This document shows positions 10,864-33,176 of a DNA stretch of 64,000 bases, one piece after another. Below the pieces are notes generated by a model, which was not told the origin of the DNA, made no database searches, and saw only the letters and a list, made by a program, of their open reading frames with translations. The position numbers were made by a program, and so were the translations under genes. This DNA comes from Lophium mytilinum (lineage: Eukaryota; Ascomycota; Dothideomycetes; Mytilinidiales; Mytilinidiaceae), in assembly GCA_010093605.1 (NCBI GenBank), contig MU004196.1, positions 584,255 to 648,254 on the forward strand, read 5' to 3'. The stretch's first letter is position 1. Every line of letters begins with the position of its first letter.

Positions 10864-11556
10864 GCGCTAGTAGGGGGCTCTAATTTTAATTCCTTATCCG
10901 CCGCACCCGCTCAGTGCCTTAGTACATTAATCCTCTATCTAAATATACCTAAATCTATATATCTTTCTATTTAATAATAGCCTATACAACTATAAATAAA
11001 GCCCTAATTACTTTAGGGGAATTTAAGGCAGTTTATATATATTTTTTCCACTTTTCTTATATATTACTTTACTAATTCTTATCTTATAGACGCTATACAT
11101 AACTTTATTAATTCTCCACGCTTTAAAATAGATAAGAAGTATATCCTTATCTATTATTAGCCTATAGATTAGACGTATAATATATCTAGAGGTCCCGGAA
11201 TCTCTCTCTAAGATGCTAAGGGATAATACTAAGGTTAGGTAAAGAAAGAAAATCGCGTGCCTATTAATACACGCCTGTAAGCTAGCAGGCGTGTTATTAA
11301 ATATATAATATGCCTAGGCTAAGGCTATAAGCGTCTAGATAGCCGCCTTAGTATTAAGTAGAAGATAAAGTTTAGTATAATAGTAGTATATATTTTACTA
11401 AGTTTCTAAGTATAGATTTCTATCTCTATAATAGTTGCATAGAGTTCTACTTTAGGTAGTAAATAGATTAGATAAACGCAATTAATTTAGTTCTAATTTA
11501 AATAAAATCTATAGAAATTTAAATAAGTTATAATTTTTTTTATAATAGACTGCATA

Positions 11557-12304
11557 AAATAGGAAGTCTATAGAAGGGCTGCGCAGTCTTGCTATAAATC
11601 TACTTAAGAGTAATAACTTAATTAAATATTTATTAATTCTTACGTACTTTTTACAGGTTAACAGTATATATACAGGCAAACAGCGCGCTTAATTATAGCT
11701 AGACTATATTAGTAGATTTAAGAGATTTATAGTTTAAAGATCTATATATATAGAATATTTTATAAGTAAATTTATCTAGTTCTAGTATAGCTTAGTAGTT
11801 AGTATAGTACTTCTGTAGATTAAATTCTTAATATAATAAGCTTAAGGAGCTTTTATTGCGGGAATTTAATCTGCGGAAGCATAGAGAGTAGAAGGTTAGT
11901 AGTACTCTTTTTATAGTTTAATTTCTAGCTAGACTGCTTTCTTTTTACTTAAATATTTATTAATCCGTACGCGCTTTTAATAGGTTAACAGCGTATATAC
12001 GGGCTAACAGCGCGCTTAATTATAGCTAGATTACATTAGTAGATTTAAGAGATTTGCGTACTAAAGAAAGTGTAATAGCCGGAGGCGTAGACTGTTTTTA
12101 TGCTCTAGGCCTATACACCTTATTTAAACCGCGAATCTCTTAAATCTACTAAGGTAATCTAGCTATAATTAGGCGCGCTGTTAGCCCGTATACACGCCGT
12201 TAACCTATTAAAAGCGCGTAACTATTCTATAATAATTAACTAATTTATTACTCTTAAGTAGATTTATAGTAAGGCTGCGCAGCCCTTCTATAGACTTCCT
12301 ATTT
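11557..12304. repeat. nested palindromic repeat inside the RIP-degraded transposon
   Basis: About 180 bp at 11557-11738 recurs in inverted orientation at 12122-12304. Shared landmarks are AGGAAGTCTATAGAAGGGCT, CTTAAGAGTAATAA, GGTTAACAG and AGTAGATTTAAGAGATT. A third, partial copy of about 110 bp lies in direct orientation at 11947-12057. The arrangement suggests a smaller element with long inverted termini, or a rearranged pair, inserted into the larger transposon before or during RIP. Confidence 0.75.
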
Positions 12305-12929
12305 CCTTATAATATACTCTCGGCAGCTACCGCCGGAGGACGTAGAACAGCTAATACTAGACGGATTAGAACGCGCTTTTAGATAGAATAAGGTATAATA
12401 TATTATAATTAACTAGTAGTTAGTCTAAATAGAAAAAGTATATTATATATATTAAAATAGGCGTTTATAGTAAGAATAATAAAAAATTAGCCCCCCCTTC
12501 TACTACTAGCCCCTTAGTTTACTCTATATAACGCCCCTGTAATTCTAAACCGCTATAACTCTACTAATATATATTATATTAAGAATCTAAGACTATAGGC
12601 CTATTACCTAAGTTACCGGCTTTAAAGCTAGAAGATATAAAGCTATTATGCGGCGTAGTTATAAGATTAATAGGGTTATCCGGAGTATTTAATTACAGTT
12701 CTAAAACCTTATTTTAGCGCTTAAGATTATACGCCATTAATAGCTTAATAATTAGCTGTTTCCGGAGCCCTAAGTACTTCTTAATTCTACGCTTTTTATA
12801 CAACTTAGTAAGCTATTTAATAGTTCCGTTCTTATACTAATAGCTATTTATCTTATTATCTCTACTTATAAAGTGTAGGTTATTATTATTAAAATTAGGC
12901 TCTTATTTAATGTATATTAAAACAATAGG

Positions 12930-14350
12930 TGCATCGGCCCACGTAGAGAGGTCCTATTCCTCTAGCTTATAGCCCTTAATGCGGAGCTTACTATTCTTGC
13001 TTCTATTAGCTGCTAGCAAGATTCCTATATCTTAGAATGCTTTAATAATAAGCTCTAGCCGTAATTAGAGTATCTTCTTAGCAGCAGAGACCGCCTAGGT
13101 AGTAAGGATTCTCTTATCCTCTAGCTTATCTTTCTTAGGCTTCTCTCTAATAGTATACCGCTTCTCTAGGAGGTCCTCTATATTCTAAGTAATCTACTTC
13201 TTATAGGGCTTATTAATAGCTATATTAAGAGGCTATAGATAGCCTATGCAGCCGCCGGGAATTATTAATATAAATACCTTATTTAATATAAGAAGGTTTT
13301 TAATAGCCTTAGTCTTATAAAATGCTGCAGCATTAAGTAAAAGAAGAGACTCTAGCGCGTTGCCTTCTGCGTTCTTATTAGCTAGAAAATAGGTTTCTAT
13401 TATCTAGAAATAGAATAGCGTCTTATTATTATATATATGCTCGTTAACGTGCATAATTATATTCTTAGAGTACTTTTCTCCTTTCTTTTTAATAATTATT
13501 CTAGCCTTAAATAATAAACCTTTAAATATTATTATAGGTTTATATCTGCCTACACTATTAGCGCAGATATAGAGTATAAGAGTAGCCTGCCGCTTATTAT
13601 AGCCGCTTTTAAAGACTTATATAGTAACCTTCTTAGCTTCTTTAAAGTTATAAGTATACTAAGTAATCTACTTATAAGGAATAGGCGTCTTATTAAGGTT
13701 TACAATTTAAGATAGAGAAAATTAATAGTAAATAGGCTATAGAGAGTTAAGAGGTTAATTAAGAGCTATTTTAAAGAAAGCCCCTAGAATAATTAGTTAC
13801 GTAATCTACTAGTTATATAGCAGAAACGCTAGTATATACTTCTTTAAGAGAATAGGCGGTTTAAAGGCCTTCTTTATAACTGCCTAGTATAAAATTTAAG
13901 TATAACTAAGGAAGCTACTAAACTAGCCTTTTAAAAAGGTAAATATAGTTTTACCCTCCTTATAGAGGTCTTTAAAAAGCTTATTTAATTGCCTTTAGAA
14001 CTAATAAAGGCGAACCTAGAGTCTTCTTTCCCTTTTAATAATAAATTCCTTATATAATCTCTTCTTAAGGAGGTTCTATTTACAGAAGTAGTTAATATAA
14101 GCTAGGTAATAATTTAAACGCGGCGTTTATAAAAGTAAATTAACCTATAACGCCTACGCTACTATATTTAACTTGCTAATCTTCTAGAAGCATTCTGCCT
14201 TATTAAACGTAGGTTTATATTAATTATAAGTAGGTATCTAGAGGGGATAGCTATAGAGAATATAGTCCCTTTTATAAGGTTATATATTAATACGGGTTAG
14301 ATTACACTATATAAGGACCTCTAGCTTCTTCTTAGTAGAGTACGTAGTTT
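12930..14350 (-). pseudogene. DDE transposase relic (pogo/CENP-B-like)
   Basis: Only fragments are readable, broken by many stops consistent with C-to-T change. Order on the minus strand: an N-terminal part too decayed to read (14.35-13.75 kb); the first catalytic block around LNKTPIPY (about 13,680-13,705); GYNKRQATLILYICANS and HVNEHIYNNKTLF; then LLLLNAAAFYKTKAI and IPGGCIGYL...INKPYK (13,200-13,330); and a C-terminal RILTT segment near 13,100. The order and spacing match fungal DDE-superfamily endonucleases. It is not functional. Confidence 0.7.
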
Positions 14351-14884
14351 ATTTTATCTAAACCGGCGTTGTGCGTATTCTTTTAGTAAGTATATAGTTA
14401 TCTAAAGCCTTTCTTTTCCATCCTATTAATACTAAGTCCCCTTTTAATAGACGCTTAGTTAAGCAGCCTATAATATTTAGATTAAGTTCTTAGAGTGCTA
14501 TTAAAGCTATATATAAGAGGAAATAGTATAGCAATAAGTAGTTAAAAAGATATAGTAAAGTAATAGAGGATAGATAAAGAAAAGGGTTTATTATTATTTA
14601 TAATTACTAGCTAGCTGTATATCCCCCCTAGGGAAATTATACTATAAATTCTCCACGCCTTAATTTTTGTCCAATTTCTATAATTCTAAGCGCGATTAAT
14701 AGGAAATTATAAGCTCTACAACTCTTCTTATATATATATAATTAAAAAGTAACGTTTTAGTAGTATAGTTATAGGCGTTAAAACGGGTAATAAGGGGAAT
14801 CGCGAAAATCTAATATAATTTTCTTATCTATTATCTATACACTAAACTACACTACGTTACCTGCCGATCACCCCCCTTGGAGCG

Positions 14885-14922
14885 TGCCAAGGGTGGCGTC
14901 CGGATATTCCGAAACTATACGG
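14885..14922 (-). repeat. right terminal inverted repeat of the transposon
   Basis: 38 bp, reverse complement of 10826-10863, followed by TA at 14923-14924. Confidence 0.95.
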
Positions 14923-15121
14923 TATGTGAATAGACTCATTTCCCCAAGCCCAAAGATTGTTCACTTGGAATAGTATTACAGGGTTTACAACGCCGGGAGC
15001 TTGATGTAAGCGGTTTGTGAGCCAACGAAGCAGTCCAATCACATCGAGTCTCGCCGTTGGCGTGTTCGTGTTATGCATTTCCCGAGACTCATTTTGTGAC
15101 AAACCATAGCAAAGTTTCGAC

Positions 15122-20211: not shown

Positions 20212-23200
20212 ATGAGTGACCCAATCTCTGTTGCCGGCACGGCAATTGGAGTGGTCTCTCTAGGACTCAGCCTTTGCCAGAATCTTGTTGATTACGTGGA
20301 AGCTTTGCAGGACCGAAAGAATAACGTTCGGTCGATCTTGAGTAAAGTAGATTGTCTCCGAACCTCTCTAGACATGGTCAAAGATGCAGTCAGTCACGTT
20401 TCACCCAGCCATCGGAATGTCGTCGATGCTGTGGAGAAGTGCCTTCGCGAGTCCGAGGCTGAGATGCGCCGCTTGGATGTGTATCTCAAGAACCTGAAGT
20501 GCGATTACATCATCACAGATAGCAAGAGCAAAAAGGTTAGATCGACCGCCCGAAAGCTCTTGTACCCTTTCAAGACGGCCAGCATCTAGAAGTTGGAGAG
20601 CGATATTCAAGCCATCAACGGTATCTTGGCAACTGCATTGCAGGCCCTTGGAATGTTAGTTACACCTTTCATAGTCCTCACATTGTCTCCAATCCACAAT
20701 TCACGCTATTTCGCACTTTTTTCGGCAGTGTATTGTAGAGGTCATATATTATAGCGATTTGACCTTGCGCGGAGGGTTGGTCCGACCGTCTTGTAGACAT
20801 CATGTCTTACTGTCCCAGCTTCTCTGTTTAAACCCCGGCTTATTCGCTTTCAAAGTTAACATTGCACTCACAGCGACATCGGTAGCACACACTCAGGGCA
20901 GCTTTCTTCGCTCATCTCTACATCGGCCACCACGTCTGCTGCTGTTGGTTCTGTTCTCGATGGCGTTGTGGCTCTCCGTACCGATGTCTCGAACCTGTCA
21001 TCAGACCTTTCAGTATCCGGTTCCTTGAACGAACAGAATCTCAACGAAGTTCGCCGAAATGTCTCAGTTATTATGCCAGAAGTGCACTCAGCGTTGCCTG
21101 CTATCAAGTACTCCGCAGCGGAAACGACGAAAAGCACGACTATCATTCAATCTGATGTAAAAGCAGTTGGACAGGACATTGGCCAGATTAAGCAGGAGAT
21201 CTTCGCATCGTCTAGTAGGCTAGAGCGAAACTCGGATCTTGTGCAGAGCCTGTTCTCCGAGCTCACCGAATTTCGATCAGATCATGCATCCCGGATGGAA
21301 AGTCTTGTAAGTAGCGACTGCCATCAAGCTCTGCTATGCTGACAATGTAGAAGGAAACAGAATTGCGCACTCTTCAATGTCGCCTACTATCAAAACCTGA
21401 CGCCCTGCGTACCGTCTGCGACGACTACAAAATCTCTCAACCACCAAATCGCAAACGATCTCGTTTTGGGTCGCAAGGAATAAGGCCCTCTCATGCTTAC
21501 TGTTGCTTGTTATGCAATTGTACTGCGAGCCGTTCCCTGGCCATAGGTCGTTATCTCTCGGGCTATCTATCCATATCTATCGAAAGGGAGGCTCATAAAG
21601 AGGTTCATGAGCAAGATTGCCCATTTCACAGCTCTCCAATGCGAAGCCGGTCCGTGAGGGCATCATTGTCTTGCTATGGGTCGTTCCTAGCTGGTACTTT
21701 GTCCACTGAGTTATCTTTCAGGACAGGCGCTGGTGGATGCTCGATCGCTCCATCCCTCTCCTACAGTAGGATCGTGGCATGGGATTCCCCCGCATTCTTC
21801 CTTCTGGAATGCGAAACGGACTACTTCATCCGCGATAGATTCTCAGTGCCACGGTACTATAAGGATACTGAAGATATCTTAGATCTATTGAATGCAGTGC
21901 CAACAAAGCTGCTCGAGATATTCGCTCGAAGACAGAGTTTACCGACAGATCTGAACGAACGAGGACAGTCGTTATGTCATGTAATAAAAATTTCCGTCCA
22001 ATAGCGTATTCTCAGATGCTTACCGTTGACAAAGGTCGTTATGAAACTTATAGACAAAAGAATGTGTAAAGACACCCAGACGGTTGAAGCTTTTCTTAGG
22101 ATACTTCGCGTTCTGGTTTCGGTCGGAGCTCCCGTCAATCGTCTTGACTATTCTGGCTGGTAAGCTATACCGTGGCGAGTCTAAGTCAACTTCTCTGCTA
22201 AGTGACTATATCAGTTCCCCAATGGATCAGTTTTGGCTTGAGATAGATCCCAATTATCCCTGTGACCTGGCACATATGGTGAGAAGTACAACCCTGGAAT
22301 TGATCGATGGAGGCCTAGACATAGGTCCGGAGTTCCAGCCATCTCATCATCTAGGTTCGTTTTATCAAAGCTGTCTATCGGAGTGCCATGAGCTTGCAGA
22401 GAGTAAGAACCCGTAAGATAGTACAATGACCGCGAACTAAGAACATCAGTCTTCGAGTGTGGTCTCCTGAGCATGGCAGTACTACGGAAGTCTGAAAGGG
22501 AGATGCTGTATATCCTATCGAAATCGCCGAAAGCCGTACAAGAAAGAAACAAATTCGGGCAGACGCCGCTGCACCTATCTTGCGATTGGGATCGAGGAAT
22601 GAAGATATTGATCGATGCAGGTACCGACATCGATGCGGTAGATTGCTGTAGTCGTCCAGTATTTCGTTACTGCGCCGAACGCAACTCCATCGAGTCGCTC
22701 GACCTCCTGCTCGAAGCTGGCTGTTATCTGTCAGGTCTCTGCGCCTTAGGGACTGTCCCTGCACTCTCATTCGCGTTTGAAGCTGCTTCTTTGGACATCA
22801 AGCGACTGTTAGCAAATTCAATAGCGCAACGGCGATACGGCTTAAAACAACTAGGGCTGGCTGCTTTGCCTATTCAGTCTCACCAGGCGCTTGGCCTACT
22901 TAATAGCGGAGCTTTGGATGGGAAGCTAGAGGGGCTCCTCGGTGCTTTGAGGACACAAAATATCCATATTCCATCGTTGTTCGAGAATCCGGGATATTTC
23001 GGACGTTGTTCTATCTATCATATGCGGGAACTCTCAATCGAGAGCGCAGAGACTTTGTACAACGCTGGATTCATTGACATTGACGCATTAGACGAAGACG
23101 GCTTGCCACCGGTTTGCTTTCATTCGATGCAAAGGTCCTATTTAGTTTACTCTTCGGACTTCTCTCTTTTGAATTGGTTCTTACTGAAGGGTGCTAACTT

Positions 23201-24191
23201 GAATGCAAGCCTTCGCATGAAGGTTGGCAACAATACGACTCGATCGTGGAAGACTGCGCACGTTTTAGCGTACATGCTCGGCCAGAACATGCATAATCCA
23301 GGTTCCGGCTGGCATGCAGAATGGTATCATACTGTGTGCTGTCAACTAGACCCGGATTGTCACGACATTATCGCCGGCAGCTGTATTGAAACATGCAAAA
23401 TCGAGAGTCCCGACAGTTGCACTTGCGGGTGTTCCTTGCAAGGGTGTACTTCAAGCACCTTCATTATTAAAGGCTTGATTAGACGGTCCCAGGCATCTGA
23501 CGGGTTCATTCAAATTCTCAGTCGCCACTGCTCACCAAACCAGACGTACTGGTCCTGGCAAGTACAGCAGGCGATACGAATCCTCACATTCAACGCATTG
23601 GGCTTGCGACACACTTGCTGTCTGTGGTTTTCATATAGGCCGTACGTCTCCGTTCAAACGCAAGAGGAGGTAGACGAGATCCGCGACGAAGACCGTCACC
23701 AACTCGAGCGGTTTGAAGACCTTGTCCAGGAATTCCAAATTGCATTCAACGAATCCGAAGAAACGTTACTGTCTTTTTTCCGCAACTACTGGACCCCGCG
23801 TATTGAAGAGGTGTTGAACGAACCCTACCCCGAGGACGAAGAAGAAATCCGACGAATCGAGAATATTGGCGTCGTCTTAGAGAGACCACCTCTTACTGAA
23901 CGCGAAGGTCAACTTGTACCAACTCCGTCAGTAGTCTTTGAGGACATCTACTGCGACAACTGTGACATGCTCGTAGCAAACGAGCACTTCCACTGCTGCA
24001 TCTGCAATTTTGACGACTACGACCTCTGCGCAGCTTGTTTCAACTCCGGCCTTCACTGTCATAGCAGAGACCACTGGATGATCAAGCGCTTCGTAAAGAA
24101 CGGCATAATCACCGAAAGTAATACTGAGCATATTGGATTCAAAATGAAGTTTAGACCTACTCCGAGGATAGCGTGTCAAGTGCTTTCATAG
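20212..24191 (+). CDS. HeLo-like N-terminal + ankyrin + ZZ zinc-finger protein (one in-frame TAG)
   Basis: Six exons close exactly in phase: 20212-20654, 20874-21306, 21351-21980, 22035-22159, 22215-22402 and 22450-24191 (1186 codons before the final stop). Residues 1-~150 are the fungal STAND-type N-terminal domain (MSDPISVAGTAIGVVSLGLS). A helical linker follows, then degenerate ankyrin repeats (RILRVLVSVGAPVNRLDYSG; FGQTPLHLSCDWDRGMKILI). A C-terminal ZZ zinc finger occupies about 23,947-24,085 (YCDNCDMLVANEHFHCCICN...CAACFNSG). A TAG at 20587-20589 interrupts exon 1 where a Gln would be expected (TASI*KLESDIQAING). Otherwise nothing is broken. Either it is a recent nonsense mutation (CAG to TAG), or the stop is removed by a 54-nt GT-AG intron (20536-20589) that is also in frame. 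Such proteins are thought to act in cytoplasmic recognition signalling. Confidence 0.8.
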
Positions 24192-28679: not shown

Positions 28680-29338
28680 AGGACATTTAGGCACAGTTTA
28701 TAAGGAATAAACAGCTAAAACAGCTAACCTTTAACGCTGCATCTTAACCCTTAATATAATACTAAATAGCCTACTATAACTATAAGGCGCTAGCCTATCT
28801 TCTACTCTATCTCCTGCATTTAATACTAAGTTTAGCTATACTATAACGCGCCTATATTTTTAAGAAAGTAGAGCCTATACTAAAAAGTATATAGGCGTAC
28901 TAAGAAATCTTTTAATACTATATATTAACTATTAATATAACTCTAAATAGCCTACTATAACTATAAGGTGCTAGCCTATCTTCTACTCTATCTTCTATAT
29001 CTAATACTAAGTCTAGCTATACTATAACGCGGCTGTAATTCTAAGAGAGTAGACGTATGCTAAAAGGTATATAGGCGTGCTAAAAAATATATAAAGAGAA
29101 ATAAGGTATAGTAGTCTAGTTTTAAAAAATATACTTTTAACTTTAATACTATATATTAACCCTTAATACTATAGCTAGCTAGGTATAACTCTTAAAAGAT
29201 AGTAGAGAAAAAACTTATAATTAAAATATATTAAATACTAAGACTATAGCTAATAAATTTACCTTATAGTTAATATTTAAAAAAGGTATACCTCTTAAAA
29301 ATAGACTAGTTTACACTAAACGGGCGCCCAAATGTCCT
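28680..29338. mobile_element. small RIP-degraded TA-flanked non-autonomous DNA element (MITE-like)
   Basis: A 659-bp AT-rich island with little CA/TG. Short inverted termini are visible: AGGACATTTAGGC at 28680-28692 and its inverted near-copy (one mismatch) at 29326-29338. TA lies on each outer side (28678-28679 and 29339-29340). Inside, a segment of about 180 bp is directly repeated with an offset of 181 bp (from about 28761 and 28942; landmark CTAAATAGCCTACTATAACT). There is no coding remnant. Size, TA duplication and termini fit a MITE of the Tc1/mariner type, later hit by RIP. Confidence 0.7.
28761..29110 (+). repeat. two direct ~180-bp repeats inside the small AT-rich element
   Basis: Copy 1 begins near 28761 and copy 2 near 28942. 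Both carry CTAAATAGCCTACTATAACT, GCTAGCCTATCTTCTACTCT, AATACTAAGT and TATATAGGCGT in the same order. They differ mostly by transitions, as expected after RIP. Confidence 0.75.
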
Positions 29339-29797: not shown

Positions 29798-32700
29798 ATG
29801 GCCGAGATCGGGCTCATAGCGTCCGTCATCCAAGTCGCCGGCGCAGGCCTTAAGCTCGCCGACACGTTATACCAATACGCCGAAGCTGTCTCAACCGCCG
29901 ACAGACGCATTAAAGACATCGCTAGAGATGTCAAATTGACCTCGCGCGTCATCGACGAGCTAGGAAGCATCTTTAAGCAGGACGAAACCGCGTTGTTGCT
30001 CTCCAACAATGCCGTCAGTACAGCCCAGGAGACGGTGCGCGAGTGCTCCAGTCTATTCGAAGAGATGGACGCCGCGCTCAAGAAAACGAAGAAGAATACG
30101 CTGGGAAGATTCATGATGCCTTTCCGAGAGCCGAAGATGGAACTTCTCCGCGCGAATATCGATCGCTTGAAGAGCACGTTGCAGTTATTGATGCAGGTTT
30201 TGACGCATGCGTATCAGGTGGCTTCTCAGTATGTTTTGAAGATCAACAGCTACTATAAGCACCTAGCTAATGACGGCATATAGTAAGGCGCCGAAAGAAG
30301 TGGTGGCAGTCCAGCGCCATAATATCAAGGTTCTGATTAAGGCTAAAAAGGAATCTACGAAACGATATCAGGAGTCCTTAAGAAGCTACAGTATGAGTGA
30401 CGAGAGCACAGTCTTGAAGTAAATCACGAAACTTTTGTTATCATCGAGTTCGTAGACTGACATTCGCAGTGACGACGAAATCTCTATCAACACGAAGGCG
30501 CTCGGCACGTCGACAGAGAAAGGCAGTGGATTTGTCACAACCGCCTCCTCGATTAGCTCAACCATCACCAAGACAAGCCTAGCGTCATGTGTTGCACATA
30601 TCCAGAAATTACTGAACGATATTGAACTCGTGCAGCATGCGCTAAACTCCAACATCGAAGGCGAAGACGCTTCAGAACACGAACAGGCTCTTGTCGGCTC
30701 CTACTTTAGTGCTCGTAAACACCTCGACACCATCATTCTCGGCGGCTCGGGCCCAGGGAGAACCGACTCAGGCCTCTCAGAGGAGACGCTAGTAACGCCT
30801 CAAGGAAGAAATAACAATCAACAAGAGAACGCCGCAATGCTCGCCCCTCCACCTGAAGAGACAAAGCCGGCGGTAAAGTTCGTTGATGCCATAGGGAGAA
30901 AGTTCGCTTTCCCATGGCAGTCAGCCAAAAGTTGGAGCGTGAGCCCACCCACCCTTCTTTAATTCGGTTGCAATTCCCTGCTCTTCCTCCTTTCTAATAC
31001 ATTCAAAGGCAACACAAGGGCTGATCAACGCCGGCTTCGCTCCTATAGAAGGCTTGAACGAACACGTTGAGGCTGGCCACTACGACCTCGTGGGCCCGGA
31101 CGGCGAAATCATTCTGCCCCAAATTTGGGAAACCTTCATCGAGCCTGGTATGACTGTCAAGATGGAAATGTGGCCAATACCTCCACCGCCTCCACCACTT
31201 CCGCCAGCCATGGGGCCAAGTATGCCGGGTCCTCTTGATACCGGCACCTCGCAAGATCCGTCTGTACTACATGATCCGTTGAGGATACCAACAAAACTAG
31301 GACGGGAGCGTGGAAGTGCCAAAAAAGCAATAAAGTCGGGGGAAAAACCAAAAAGCACGACCAGCCCCCTCCCACCTCCACCTCCTCCTCCTCCACCCCC
31401 ATCCCTTCCTCCCTCAGACCTCAAAATAGAGTCTACACTTGCCAAAAAGACAAAGAAGTCGAAGAAGAAGTTAAAGAAAATACCAAAAGCCGGAATTCTC
31501 TGGGCATCTGGAAGCACTTCGCCGCCCGATTCGTCCGCAAAAGACGAAGTGAGCACAAAAAGCACCGCAAGAATGGTAAATGTAGGACCTGACTACGCCT
31601 TCCGAGAACGCGCTCGAAGTCGCTCAAGAGAGCGACAAACCTCTCTAGAGCCGGAGCATGGGAAAGCTAAGGCAGAGCGCGAGTCGGTGGAGATAGCTCG
31701 TGAGCAGATTCTGCGAGGGAGGATGGAGGAGCTTTCGAAGAGGAGAACGAATTTGATGATTACCAAAGATGAGGCAAGGCGCAACAGAAAACATGTACGC
31801 ATCGAGCTCGAAATGGATCACCTTAGAGAAGACATGGAAAGGATGCGCTATAATGCCAGAAGGGAGCGTGAGGGTGAAGAATCACTCCGAAAGCGAGAGG
31901 AGGAGGAAGAGGCTATGCGAGAAGAGTTACGTCATAGGCAAAGGAACGAAGAGGAAGCTCGCAACGAGTTCGAAGAAGCTCTCCAGAGCAGGGAGCGGCC
32001 CGCTCGTTCAAGATATCAGTTCGAACCTGATGACTCCTTGGACGAAGACGAAAGCAATCTGGACGCATTTCTAGGCGCTACGAAGCGGCTGAGCGCGCTA
32101 GCTAGAGTCACAGGCCAAGAAGTGGACACGCAGAACACAAGTATCTCGCGAATCGTCACAAAGACAGATAAAGTCGATGACCAAATTGCTCTCGTAAGCC
32201 CACTCGTCACCATTTCTTGACTGAAATAGAAAAGATCCACTAATATACCGAACTATAGAATCGACAGCGACTTGATCGAATCGGGTTTGATCCTCCCAAA
32301 CGACCCCAATCTCCTCCCAAACCCTACAGCGCCCAAGGAGGCCTCCACGTTGGCGACAACGACATCGACTTTAAGCTCGACAACTACTATAGAAAATCCA
32401 AAAATACTGACTATAGTCCCCACCCCAAGGCGGACATCTTCGAAGCTAAAATAGCCAACGCAGTCGACGACAACACCAGCGACTCCGAGTCGTTTGTGTT
32501 TACCGCGGATTTTCTTGCCTCGGATTTGGACGCTGCTCCAAGTCAAGGCAAACGTCAACATTCCCCGGCCCCCGCAGCGGCCGCGGTTTCAGGATTGGTA
32601 GAGTACGGGTCCACTGCCTCATTCACCCCAAGTTCGGAAGCGGAATACTCTGAAGGCGAAGAGCTCAGCTCTCCTGATATCGCGATCGACGGCGAAGTGG

Positions 32701-33176
32701 ATGATGCGGAGGCCGTGCCACCGCCCTCTCAGCCTGCCCCGAAGCTGCGCAAGAGGACCAAGACGGGATGTTTGACATGTCGTAAGCAGAGGATTAAGTG
32801 CGGAGAAGAACGTCCTATTTGCAACAACTGCATCGACTCGAAACGTCTTTGCGAAGGATACAACCAGCGTGTTGTTTTTAGGGCGCCCACCGGAGAGTGG
32901 CCCAACCATCCGTCCACTGTCAACACACTTCCCCGGTACAGTTCAATGTTTTCCGGGGCCCGCCCTCAACAGGTAGAAGAGTGGGAGACTGGAAAACCCA
33001 GTAAACGGGATGCGAAGATGCAATTCATTGATGTTAAGGCTGGGGTTGATGAGGATGACGAAGATGACGACGAGGGCGAGGAGGATGCTGAGGTGGATGA
33101 CCTGTTGAGTGAATGGACGACGCTCAAGAGGGAGGAGTATATGGAGGGAGGGGTAGACGTGAGAGGGGAGGCGTGA
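29798..33176 (+). CDS. HeLo-like / ubiquitin-like / SNARE-like / Zn2Cys6 composite protein
   Basis: A 1045-residue protein from five exons with exact phases: 29798-30228, 30284-30418, 30470-30938, 31009-32193 and 32259-33176. Residues 1-~200 form a fungal STAND-type helical domain (MAEIGLIASVIQVAGAGLKL). Residues ~325-405 form a ubiquitin-like domain (KFVDAIGRKFAFPW; HYDLVGPDGEIILPQIWETF), followed by proline runs. Residues ~540-680 are a charged coiled coil. Residues ~695-749 match the Q-SNARE heptad pattern (GQEVDTQNTSISRI, zero-layer-like Gln ~720), cut by intron 4. At residues 911-938 lies a Zn2Cys6 cluster (C-x2-C-x6-C-x6-C-x2-C-x6-C; KTGCLTCRKQRIKCGEERP). The tail is acidic. Exon 5 has no ATG before the cluster, so the cluster is not a separately started gene in this frame. 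Function unknown; the parts suggest signalling that ends at DNA. Confidence 0.85.

Follow-up and report, generated by a model that had tools for sequence, protein, structure and literature searches.

How does one fungal gene come to join a helical domain resembling those of cell-death proteins to a ubiquitin-like fold, a SNARE coil, and a DNA-binding zinc cluster, and what might its product do? The question is raised by a gene on the forward strand, at positions 29798-33176, of a window of 64,000 nucleotides (i.e., the whole stretch of DNA analyzed here) from the dothideomycete Lophium mytilinum (GenBank assembly GCA_010093605.1, contig MU004196.1, positions 584,255 to 648,254). A sequence-only reading had described this order of modules and suggested a one-protein pathway from sensor to promoter. 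We searched the genome (43.2 Mb in 24 contigs; below, C-numbers denote contigs and L-numbers loci) for relatives of each part. Judged from its sequence, the protein is a mosaic in which an N-domain and, more weakly, a tail shared with paralogues enclose pieces like four other genes of the same genome. This likeness of the modules to other genes, as well as a Vac7 motif, had been absent from the earlier reading.

Gene model and parts of the mosaic protein

The genome has short spliceosomal introns, and the gene can be read as five exons (29798-30228, 30284-30418, 30470-30938, 31009-32193, and 32259-33176) whose spliced product of 3138 nt stays open over 1045 codons plus stop, just as had been proposed. 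All four introns run from GT to AG, measure 51-70 nt, and carry a branch-like CTAAT or CTGAC close to the acceptor, as read from the printed sequence. In the frame of exon 5, the codon immediately 5' of the exon is TAG, and the earliest ATG (32946) lies downstream of the zinc cluster (32763-32870), which bears out the earlier statement that no start codon precedes the cluster. The cluster could therefore be translated only via the upstream exons. With five exons and normal introns, we regard the gene as real on this evidence. An AT-rich, repeat-like stretch, noted by eye, lies just upstream (~28900-29330) and could stem from repeat-induced mutation.

Both ends of the protein are family-specific. 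Exon 1 (29798-30228) encodes a helical N-domain (residues 1-143) with 87% identity to a paralogue on C19, hereafter C19 gene 1, and 42-45% identity to another on C13; these were the only close relatives among the 12 places (itself included) that a genome search with the N-domain found at E <= 1. Compared with C19 gene 1, the ratio of non-synonymous to synonymous divergence (kA/kS) of the N-domain is 0.04 at a nearly saturated kS of 1.75. The likeness to C19 gene 1 continues through a further family-specific N-terminal region in exon 2 (30284-30418; 70% identity over residues 148-191) into a second family-shared region (30543-30779, residues ~214-292), around which residues 189-295 are 53% identical and the C13 frame matches weakly (E 0.004). 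At the other end, the short, acidic C-terminal tail EVDDLLSEWTTLKREE (33090-33137) resembles that of C19 gene 1 (EVDDLLSEWT versus EVDELLKDWT; 33% over 43 acidic residues, E 0.003).

We consider it likely, though not proven, that the N-domain is HeLo-like. A single-sequence AlphaFold2 model of the exon 1 domain has four long helices at a mean confidence (pLDDT) of 72.5, and a profile of the three family N-domains aligned by hhalign with seven other HeLo-like domains of this genome at 99.2% probability, a comparison that is partly circular. These seven were chosen from nine further matches of the N-domain search by omitting two short ones, and two of them include a stop, shown as X. Of the seven loci, six also appear in the genome-wide list of matches to PF17111 (PigL_N, formerly Helo_like_N according to an excerpt of PMC9815663) with 89.6 to 18.1 bits. 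A PDB search with the N-terminal 297 residues had a regulatory subunit of PI3K as its top match (E 0.011), which we judged to be coil similarity.

Between these ends, the first recognizable piece is a ubiquitin-like domain (ULD) split by intron 3 (30861-30938 and 31009-31179), which matches PF22893 (ULD_2) over residues 320-402 with E 3.3e-29 and 101.3 bits, above the cut-off of 24.5. Its closest relative is a gene on C4 (residues 310-402; 48 of 87 residues identical over the domain), and intron 3 agrees with the intron of that gene in position and phase (phase 0; KSWS|ATQ versus KTWK|GME). A ubiquitin-like beside a HeLo-like domain is not unusual in this genome, and the combination recurs at three other loci (C3, C10, and C15) where a PF17111 match and a ULD_2 match share a strand and are ~0.1-0.4 kb apart, with the PF17111 match on C3 below the cut-off. 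We rejected these loci as the source of the domain: those on C3 and C10 are only 26-30% identical, the one on C15 gave no match over the domain, and the ULD matches of all three are unbroken, in contrast to the C4 gene that shares its intron with the mosaic gene. Elsewhere, L057 (C11:1312560-1313431) holds a C4-type ULD whose second part was matched with internal stops, possibly a decayed copy or an intron, beside a second ULD, and L056 (C18:258050-259689) has two tandem ULD copies of which the second is below the cut-off.

A polyproline, basic, and coiled middle follows (31180-32004), for which no donor was recognized; a genome search with ~residues 411-677 (250 residues, two polyproline runs omitted) returned only itself at E <= 0.01. 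Toward its end, it overlaps with the weaker outer portion of a match to the fungus's own Sec9 on C5 (residues 599-740, 36%). The core of this match is a C-terminal SNARE motif of the Sec9 type, led by RYQFE and including the zero-layer Gln (32011-32193, residues 680-740), plus the last heptads NRQRLDRI across intron 4 (32259-32282, residues 741-748). No SNARE model was reported by the Pfam scan of the whole protein, and the PDB search with the coil (~679-746) found Sec9 closest (E 7.8e-6, from RYQFE on), followed by SNAP-25. Residues 680-748 are 64% identical to the C-terminal SNARE of the own Sec9, with 39 of 54 residues identical in the motif. Of 16 layer positions compared, assuming the usual heptad spacing of the layers, 14 are identical, among them the zero-layer Gln. 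Intron 4 agrees in position and phase 0 with the last Sec9 intron (QIAL|NRQRLDRI versus QIAM|NRARLDRI), one residue beyond which Sec9 ends. Of the two SNARE motifs of Sec9, the C-terminal one was recognized, with no separate search made for the first.

Further on, a Vac7-like motif (32385-32600, residues ~783-855) matches PF12751 over residues 794-854 with E 3.8e-7 and 30.3 bits (cut-off 28.7), covering only positions 61-119 of the 383 in the profile and thus falling short of a full-length match. The own Vac7 (E 5e-138) is a separate gene on C9.

The last piece (32718-32966, residues 894-976) resembles the N-terminal zinc-cluster region of a regulator on C19 in 68 of 83 residues and at 86% DNA identity over 250 bp (C19:788075). 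The Zn2Cys6 cluster proper matches PF00172 (Zn_clus) over residues 909-944 with E 1.9e-6 and 28.3 bits, above the cut-off of 21, with weak PDB matches to PUT3, HAP1, GAL4, and others; at least 149 Zn_clus matches are among those listed for the genome. The C19 regulator is canonical, with Zn_clus near the start of its frame and Fungal_trans_2 further on, and lies in a separate frame on the strand of C19 gene 1, ~3.6 kb past that gene's end. The closest relatives of the N-domain and of the zinc piece are thus neighbors, which we regard as unlikely by chance in 43 Mb; this arrangement suggests that the family once lived next to its donor. A simple deletion fusing C19 gene 1 to its neighbor was rejected as the origin since the tail stands behind the zinc cluster in the mosaic gene and ahead of the regulator on C19.

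Paralogues, ages, and constraint of the captured pieces

The paralogues carry pieces resembling other genes as well. The one on C13 consists of a HeLo-like domain (PF17111 24.4 bits, below 27.2), an apparent intron 1 that corresponds in position and phase to intron 1 of the mosaic gene, as read from the printed sequence, and then a single open frame of 1255 codons without introns. Within this frame lie a piece with 72% identity over 57 residues to a large protein of the same contig (L060), a stretch resembling NF-YA (PF02045 29.7 bits, cut-off 27; 24 of 56 profile positions), a repetitive piece 36% identical to another C13 gene (L062), and a piece sharing 46 of 56 residues with a regulator on C1 that has Fungal_trans matches (L059). 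Its zinc cluster is closest to C8:1119259 (46%), which may be family resemblance only. C19 gene 1 has a domain in common with a gene on C8 (51%) that could be a family domain rather than a captured one. It also contains a piece of 67 residues with 55% identity to a frame on C4 that has no Pfam match, though a separate tblastn search did not report this piece. Zinc clusters are therefore present in two of the three family members, with different closest relatives on C19 and C8. Two of the captured pieces of the mosaic gene keep the intron position and phase of their donors, which points to copying of genomic DNA and not of processed transcripts. A scan of viral contigs with exons 1 and 5 found no relative.

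Three queries served as controls. At E <= 0.001, L060, itself a donor (753 residues, no Pfam domain), matched nothing beyond itself and the piece on C13, and a DENN protein of the window (729 residues) matched itself and one other sequence with 35% identity over 157 residues in and behind the DENN domain. With only a reciprocal or a family-type match, these two do not have the mosaic pattern. The third, the ankyrin/ZZ frame of another HeLo-like gene candidate in the window, matched itself and three others at 29-38%, and a frame on C23 shares 55% identity with the 76 residues of its ZZ end; this end may be another shared piece.

The pieces seem to have been gathered at different times, with the zinc piece last. 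Its kS is 0.38 compared to the C19 regulator, versus 1.75 for the N-domain of the same gene and C19 gene 1, and synonymous differences amount to ~18 of 58 sites in the former and 66 of 97 in the latter (Fisher P 1e-5); at four-fold sites alone, 10 of 34 compared to 30 of 58 is borderline (P 0.05). For the ULD and SNARE pieces, synonymous sites are near or at saturation. There is also modest evidence that the captured copies are kept, with kA/kS values against the respective relative of 0.25 (zinc piece), 0.19 (C1 regulator piece), and 0.23 (L060 piece). Over these three countable pieces, 45 of 93 changes are non-synonymous, which is below a neutral expectation of ~0.6 that assumes a neutral copy and a perfectly constrained donor (combined P 0.008). 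The SNARE, ULD, Vac7 motif, and C19-versus-C4 pairs, whose synonymous sites are saturated or nearly so, were left out of this test.

A proposed bait-carrying sensor and its rivals

What could such a protein be for? With a confidence somewhat short of even, we favor a mosaic surveillance protein of the HeLo-like kind that carries integrated baits. An array of baits on a death or signaling domain would account most simply for every piece, those outside DNA-binding domains included. The captured pieces would substitute for the cellular proteins from which they came. A bait might then be engaged or modified by the effector of an intruder, by a mycoviral or competitor protein, or by a non-self partner after hyphal fusion, and this contact would free the N-terminal helical domain to oligomerize and attack a membrane or signal, resulting in regulated cell death or a localized alarm. 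That the pieces are duplicates of cellular proteins, as integrated decoys would be, appears supported, while the defense-type nature of the protein would depend on the HeLo-like assignment of its N-domain. Somewhat less likely is a broader proposition, in which fungi would have a class of immune sensors that lack a nucleotide-binding domain and have time and again captured short fragments of self proteins (SNARE, vacuolar, ubiquitin-like, CCAAT-factor, regulator, and disordered) as a bait array on a HeLo-like death domain. The mosaic protein would be a member whose Sec9 piece derives from a protein that separate NOD-like receptors (NLRs) survey in other fungi.

Excerpts of the literature provide context for these ideas. 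They describe HeLo-like domains as membrane-targeting cell-death domains (PMC12881547), the NLR PLP-1 as surveying Sec9 in a type of pairing that arose repeatedly (PMC10197012, PMC12881547), and further SNARE pairings in allorecognition (PMC11138114). Integrated decoys have been proposed for fungal NLRs, e.g., a CHK2/PRD-4-like kinase piece, and zinc fingers are often among their additional domains (excerpt of PMC12258605). As far as these excerpts go, plant NLRs with integrated decoys and the candidates from Sordariales resemble our case in that a defense-type protein carries copies of cellular proteins (PMC12258605), yet the mosaic protein is without NACHT, NB-ARC, or repeats, has several short baits, and has an N-terminal part that is no more than HeLo-like. 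The PLP-1/SEC-9 allorecognition of Neurospora and its independent counterparts also involve Sec9, there as the surveyed protein (same excerpts of PMC10197012, PMC12881547, and PMC11138114), but in those systems the guard and Sec9 are two proteins and the effector is a patatin domain, while in our case the HeLo-like protein itself contains a SNARE piece like that of Sec9. HELLP-type executioners (excerpt of PMC12881547) are alike in the probable N-terminal helical domain, whereas our protein continues toward its C-terminus as a mosaic. Finally, the C19 regulator is closest to the captured piece in its cluster and flanks and differs by having the cluster near its N-terminus and a full regulator domain. 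Among the titles and abstract beginnings listed by full-text literature searches, none describes a protein that combines a HeLo-like domain with a piece of Sec9 or with a zinc cluster.

Several observations weigh against a bait-carrying death sensor. While the ubiquitin-like domain, the SNARE-like coil (with Sec9 closest), and the zinc cluster named by the sequence-only reading all held up, its HeLo-like N-terminus stays below the PF17111 cut-off of 27.2 (residues 4-136; 17.1 bits in the whole protein and 20.0 bits in the N-terminal 297 residues). Foldseek found no PDB match to the exon 1 model at E <= 0.001, with the rice PBI1 entry 7x8v as the best (E 5.2e-3), and none of the best 50 of 654 rows was a HeLo or MLKL entry by title. 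The Pfam scan of the 1045 residues reported no NACHT, NB-ARC, or other nucleotide-binding domain and no repeats, so the protein is no NLR. The Vac7 piece matches the C9 locus with E 4e-8 within that locus and only weakly genome-wide (E 0.048), the NF-YA stretch of the C13 paralogue has no donor among the genome matches listed at E <= 0.001, and none of the single constraint tests is significant alone (P 0.13, 0.05, and 0.11). Among the four baits, only Sec9 is a guarded protein in the excerpts of the cited literature.

The strongest functional rival is the sensor-to-promoter idea of the earlier note, i.e., a one-piece sensor and transcription regulator that, once freed from its partner at a membrane or SNARE, would move into the nucleus and bind DNA via its cluster with the acidic tail activating. 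It has this rank because two paralogues carry zinc clusters with different closest relatives, and the above-cut-off Pfam match and the 68 of 83 residues kept from the C19 piece speak for it as well. We nevertheless consider it unlikely: the mosaic protein has neither Fungal_trans nor Fungal_trans_2 in its Pfam scan, although the C19 regulator has the latter, the scanned frames of C19 gene 1 contain no zinc cluster, and the NF-YA match covers just 24 of 56 profile positions. Moreover, a regulator would leave the non-DNA-binding pieces unexplained (the SNARE motif, the Vac7 motif, and stretches without a Pfam domain), and the C13 and C19 genes carry such pieces too.

The strongest null explanation is evolutionary noise, in which DNA repair or transposition brought duplicated fragments into a tolerant middle, where they serve no function. 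The different ages of the pieces, their likeness to unrelated proteins, the AT-rich, repeat-like DNA upstream, and the lack of significance of any single constraint test speak for it. We find this improbable, too, given that frames of 1045 and 1255 codons are still open, that the combined constraint test is significant, and that the zero-layer Gln of the SNARE and the match to the zinc-cluster profile have been retained.

Alternatively, the captured pieces could act as mimics that dampen complexes of Sec9, Vac7, or regulators, with no death signaling involved. SNARE, ubiquitin-like, and NF-YA stretches are interaction modules, and the SNARE layers are mostly kept; such a role leaves the constrained HeLo-like N-domain and the domain-less pieces unexplained, and we think it quite improbable. 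Very unlikely is a gene model that merges two adjacent genes as on C19, where the HeLo-like gene and the zinc-cluster regulator are indeed separate frames, considering that the cluster frame follows a stop and offers no ATG ahead of the cluster, that the SNARE heptads continue across intron 4 as in Sec9, that a family-tail-like stretch stands behind the cluster in the same frame, and that the C13 paralogue has its pieces and cluster within one intronless frame. The earlier claim of one gene with this order of domains is thus supported by both ends being like one paralogue (the tail weakly), by two captured stretches with donor introns, and by the missing start codon of the cluster.

If the protein is indeed a sensor with integrated baits, fungi would assemble multi-target tripwires from copied parts of their own proteins, a principle known from plant immune receptors and, in the excerpts cited above, only proposed for fungal NLRs. 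The captured pieces would then form a readable list of what the enemies of this fungus attack. Furthermore, the co-option of Sec9 would connect the repeated evolution of Sec9-based incompatibility with a decoy route and open the guard-versus-decoy question in fungi to direct testing. Even without an immune role, three paralogues with serial in-frame capture of fragments, introns included, would be a good natural case for studying the origin of multidomain proteins.

Other features of the window

The second HeLo-like gene candidate, whose ankyrin/ZZ frame was used as a control, lies at 20212-24191 on the forward strand. It combines a PF17111 match below the cut-off (E 0.003) with ankyrin repeats and a weak ZZ zinc finger, and its first frame seems, by eye, to be interrupted by an in-frame stop near 20589. 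Further upstream, the interval 11001-15000 is AT-rich, with 28-34% GC over 11-15 kb, which could be the result of repeat-induced mutation.

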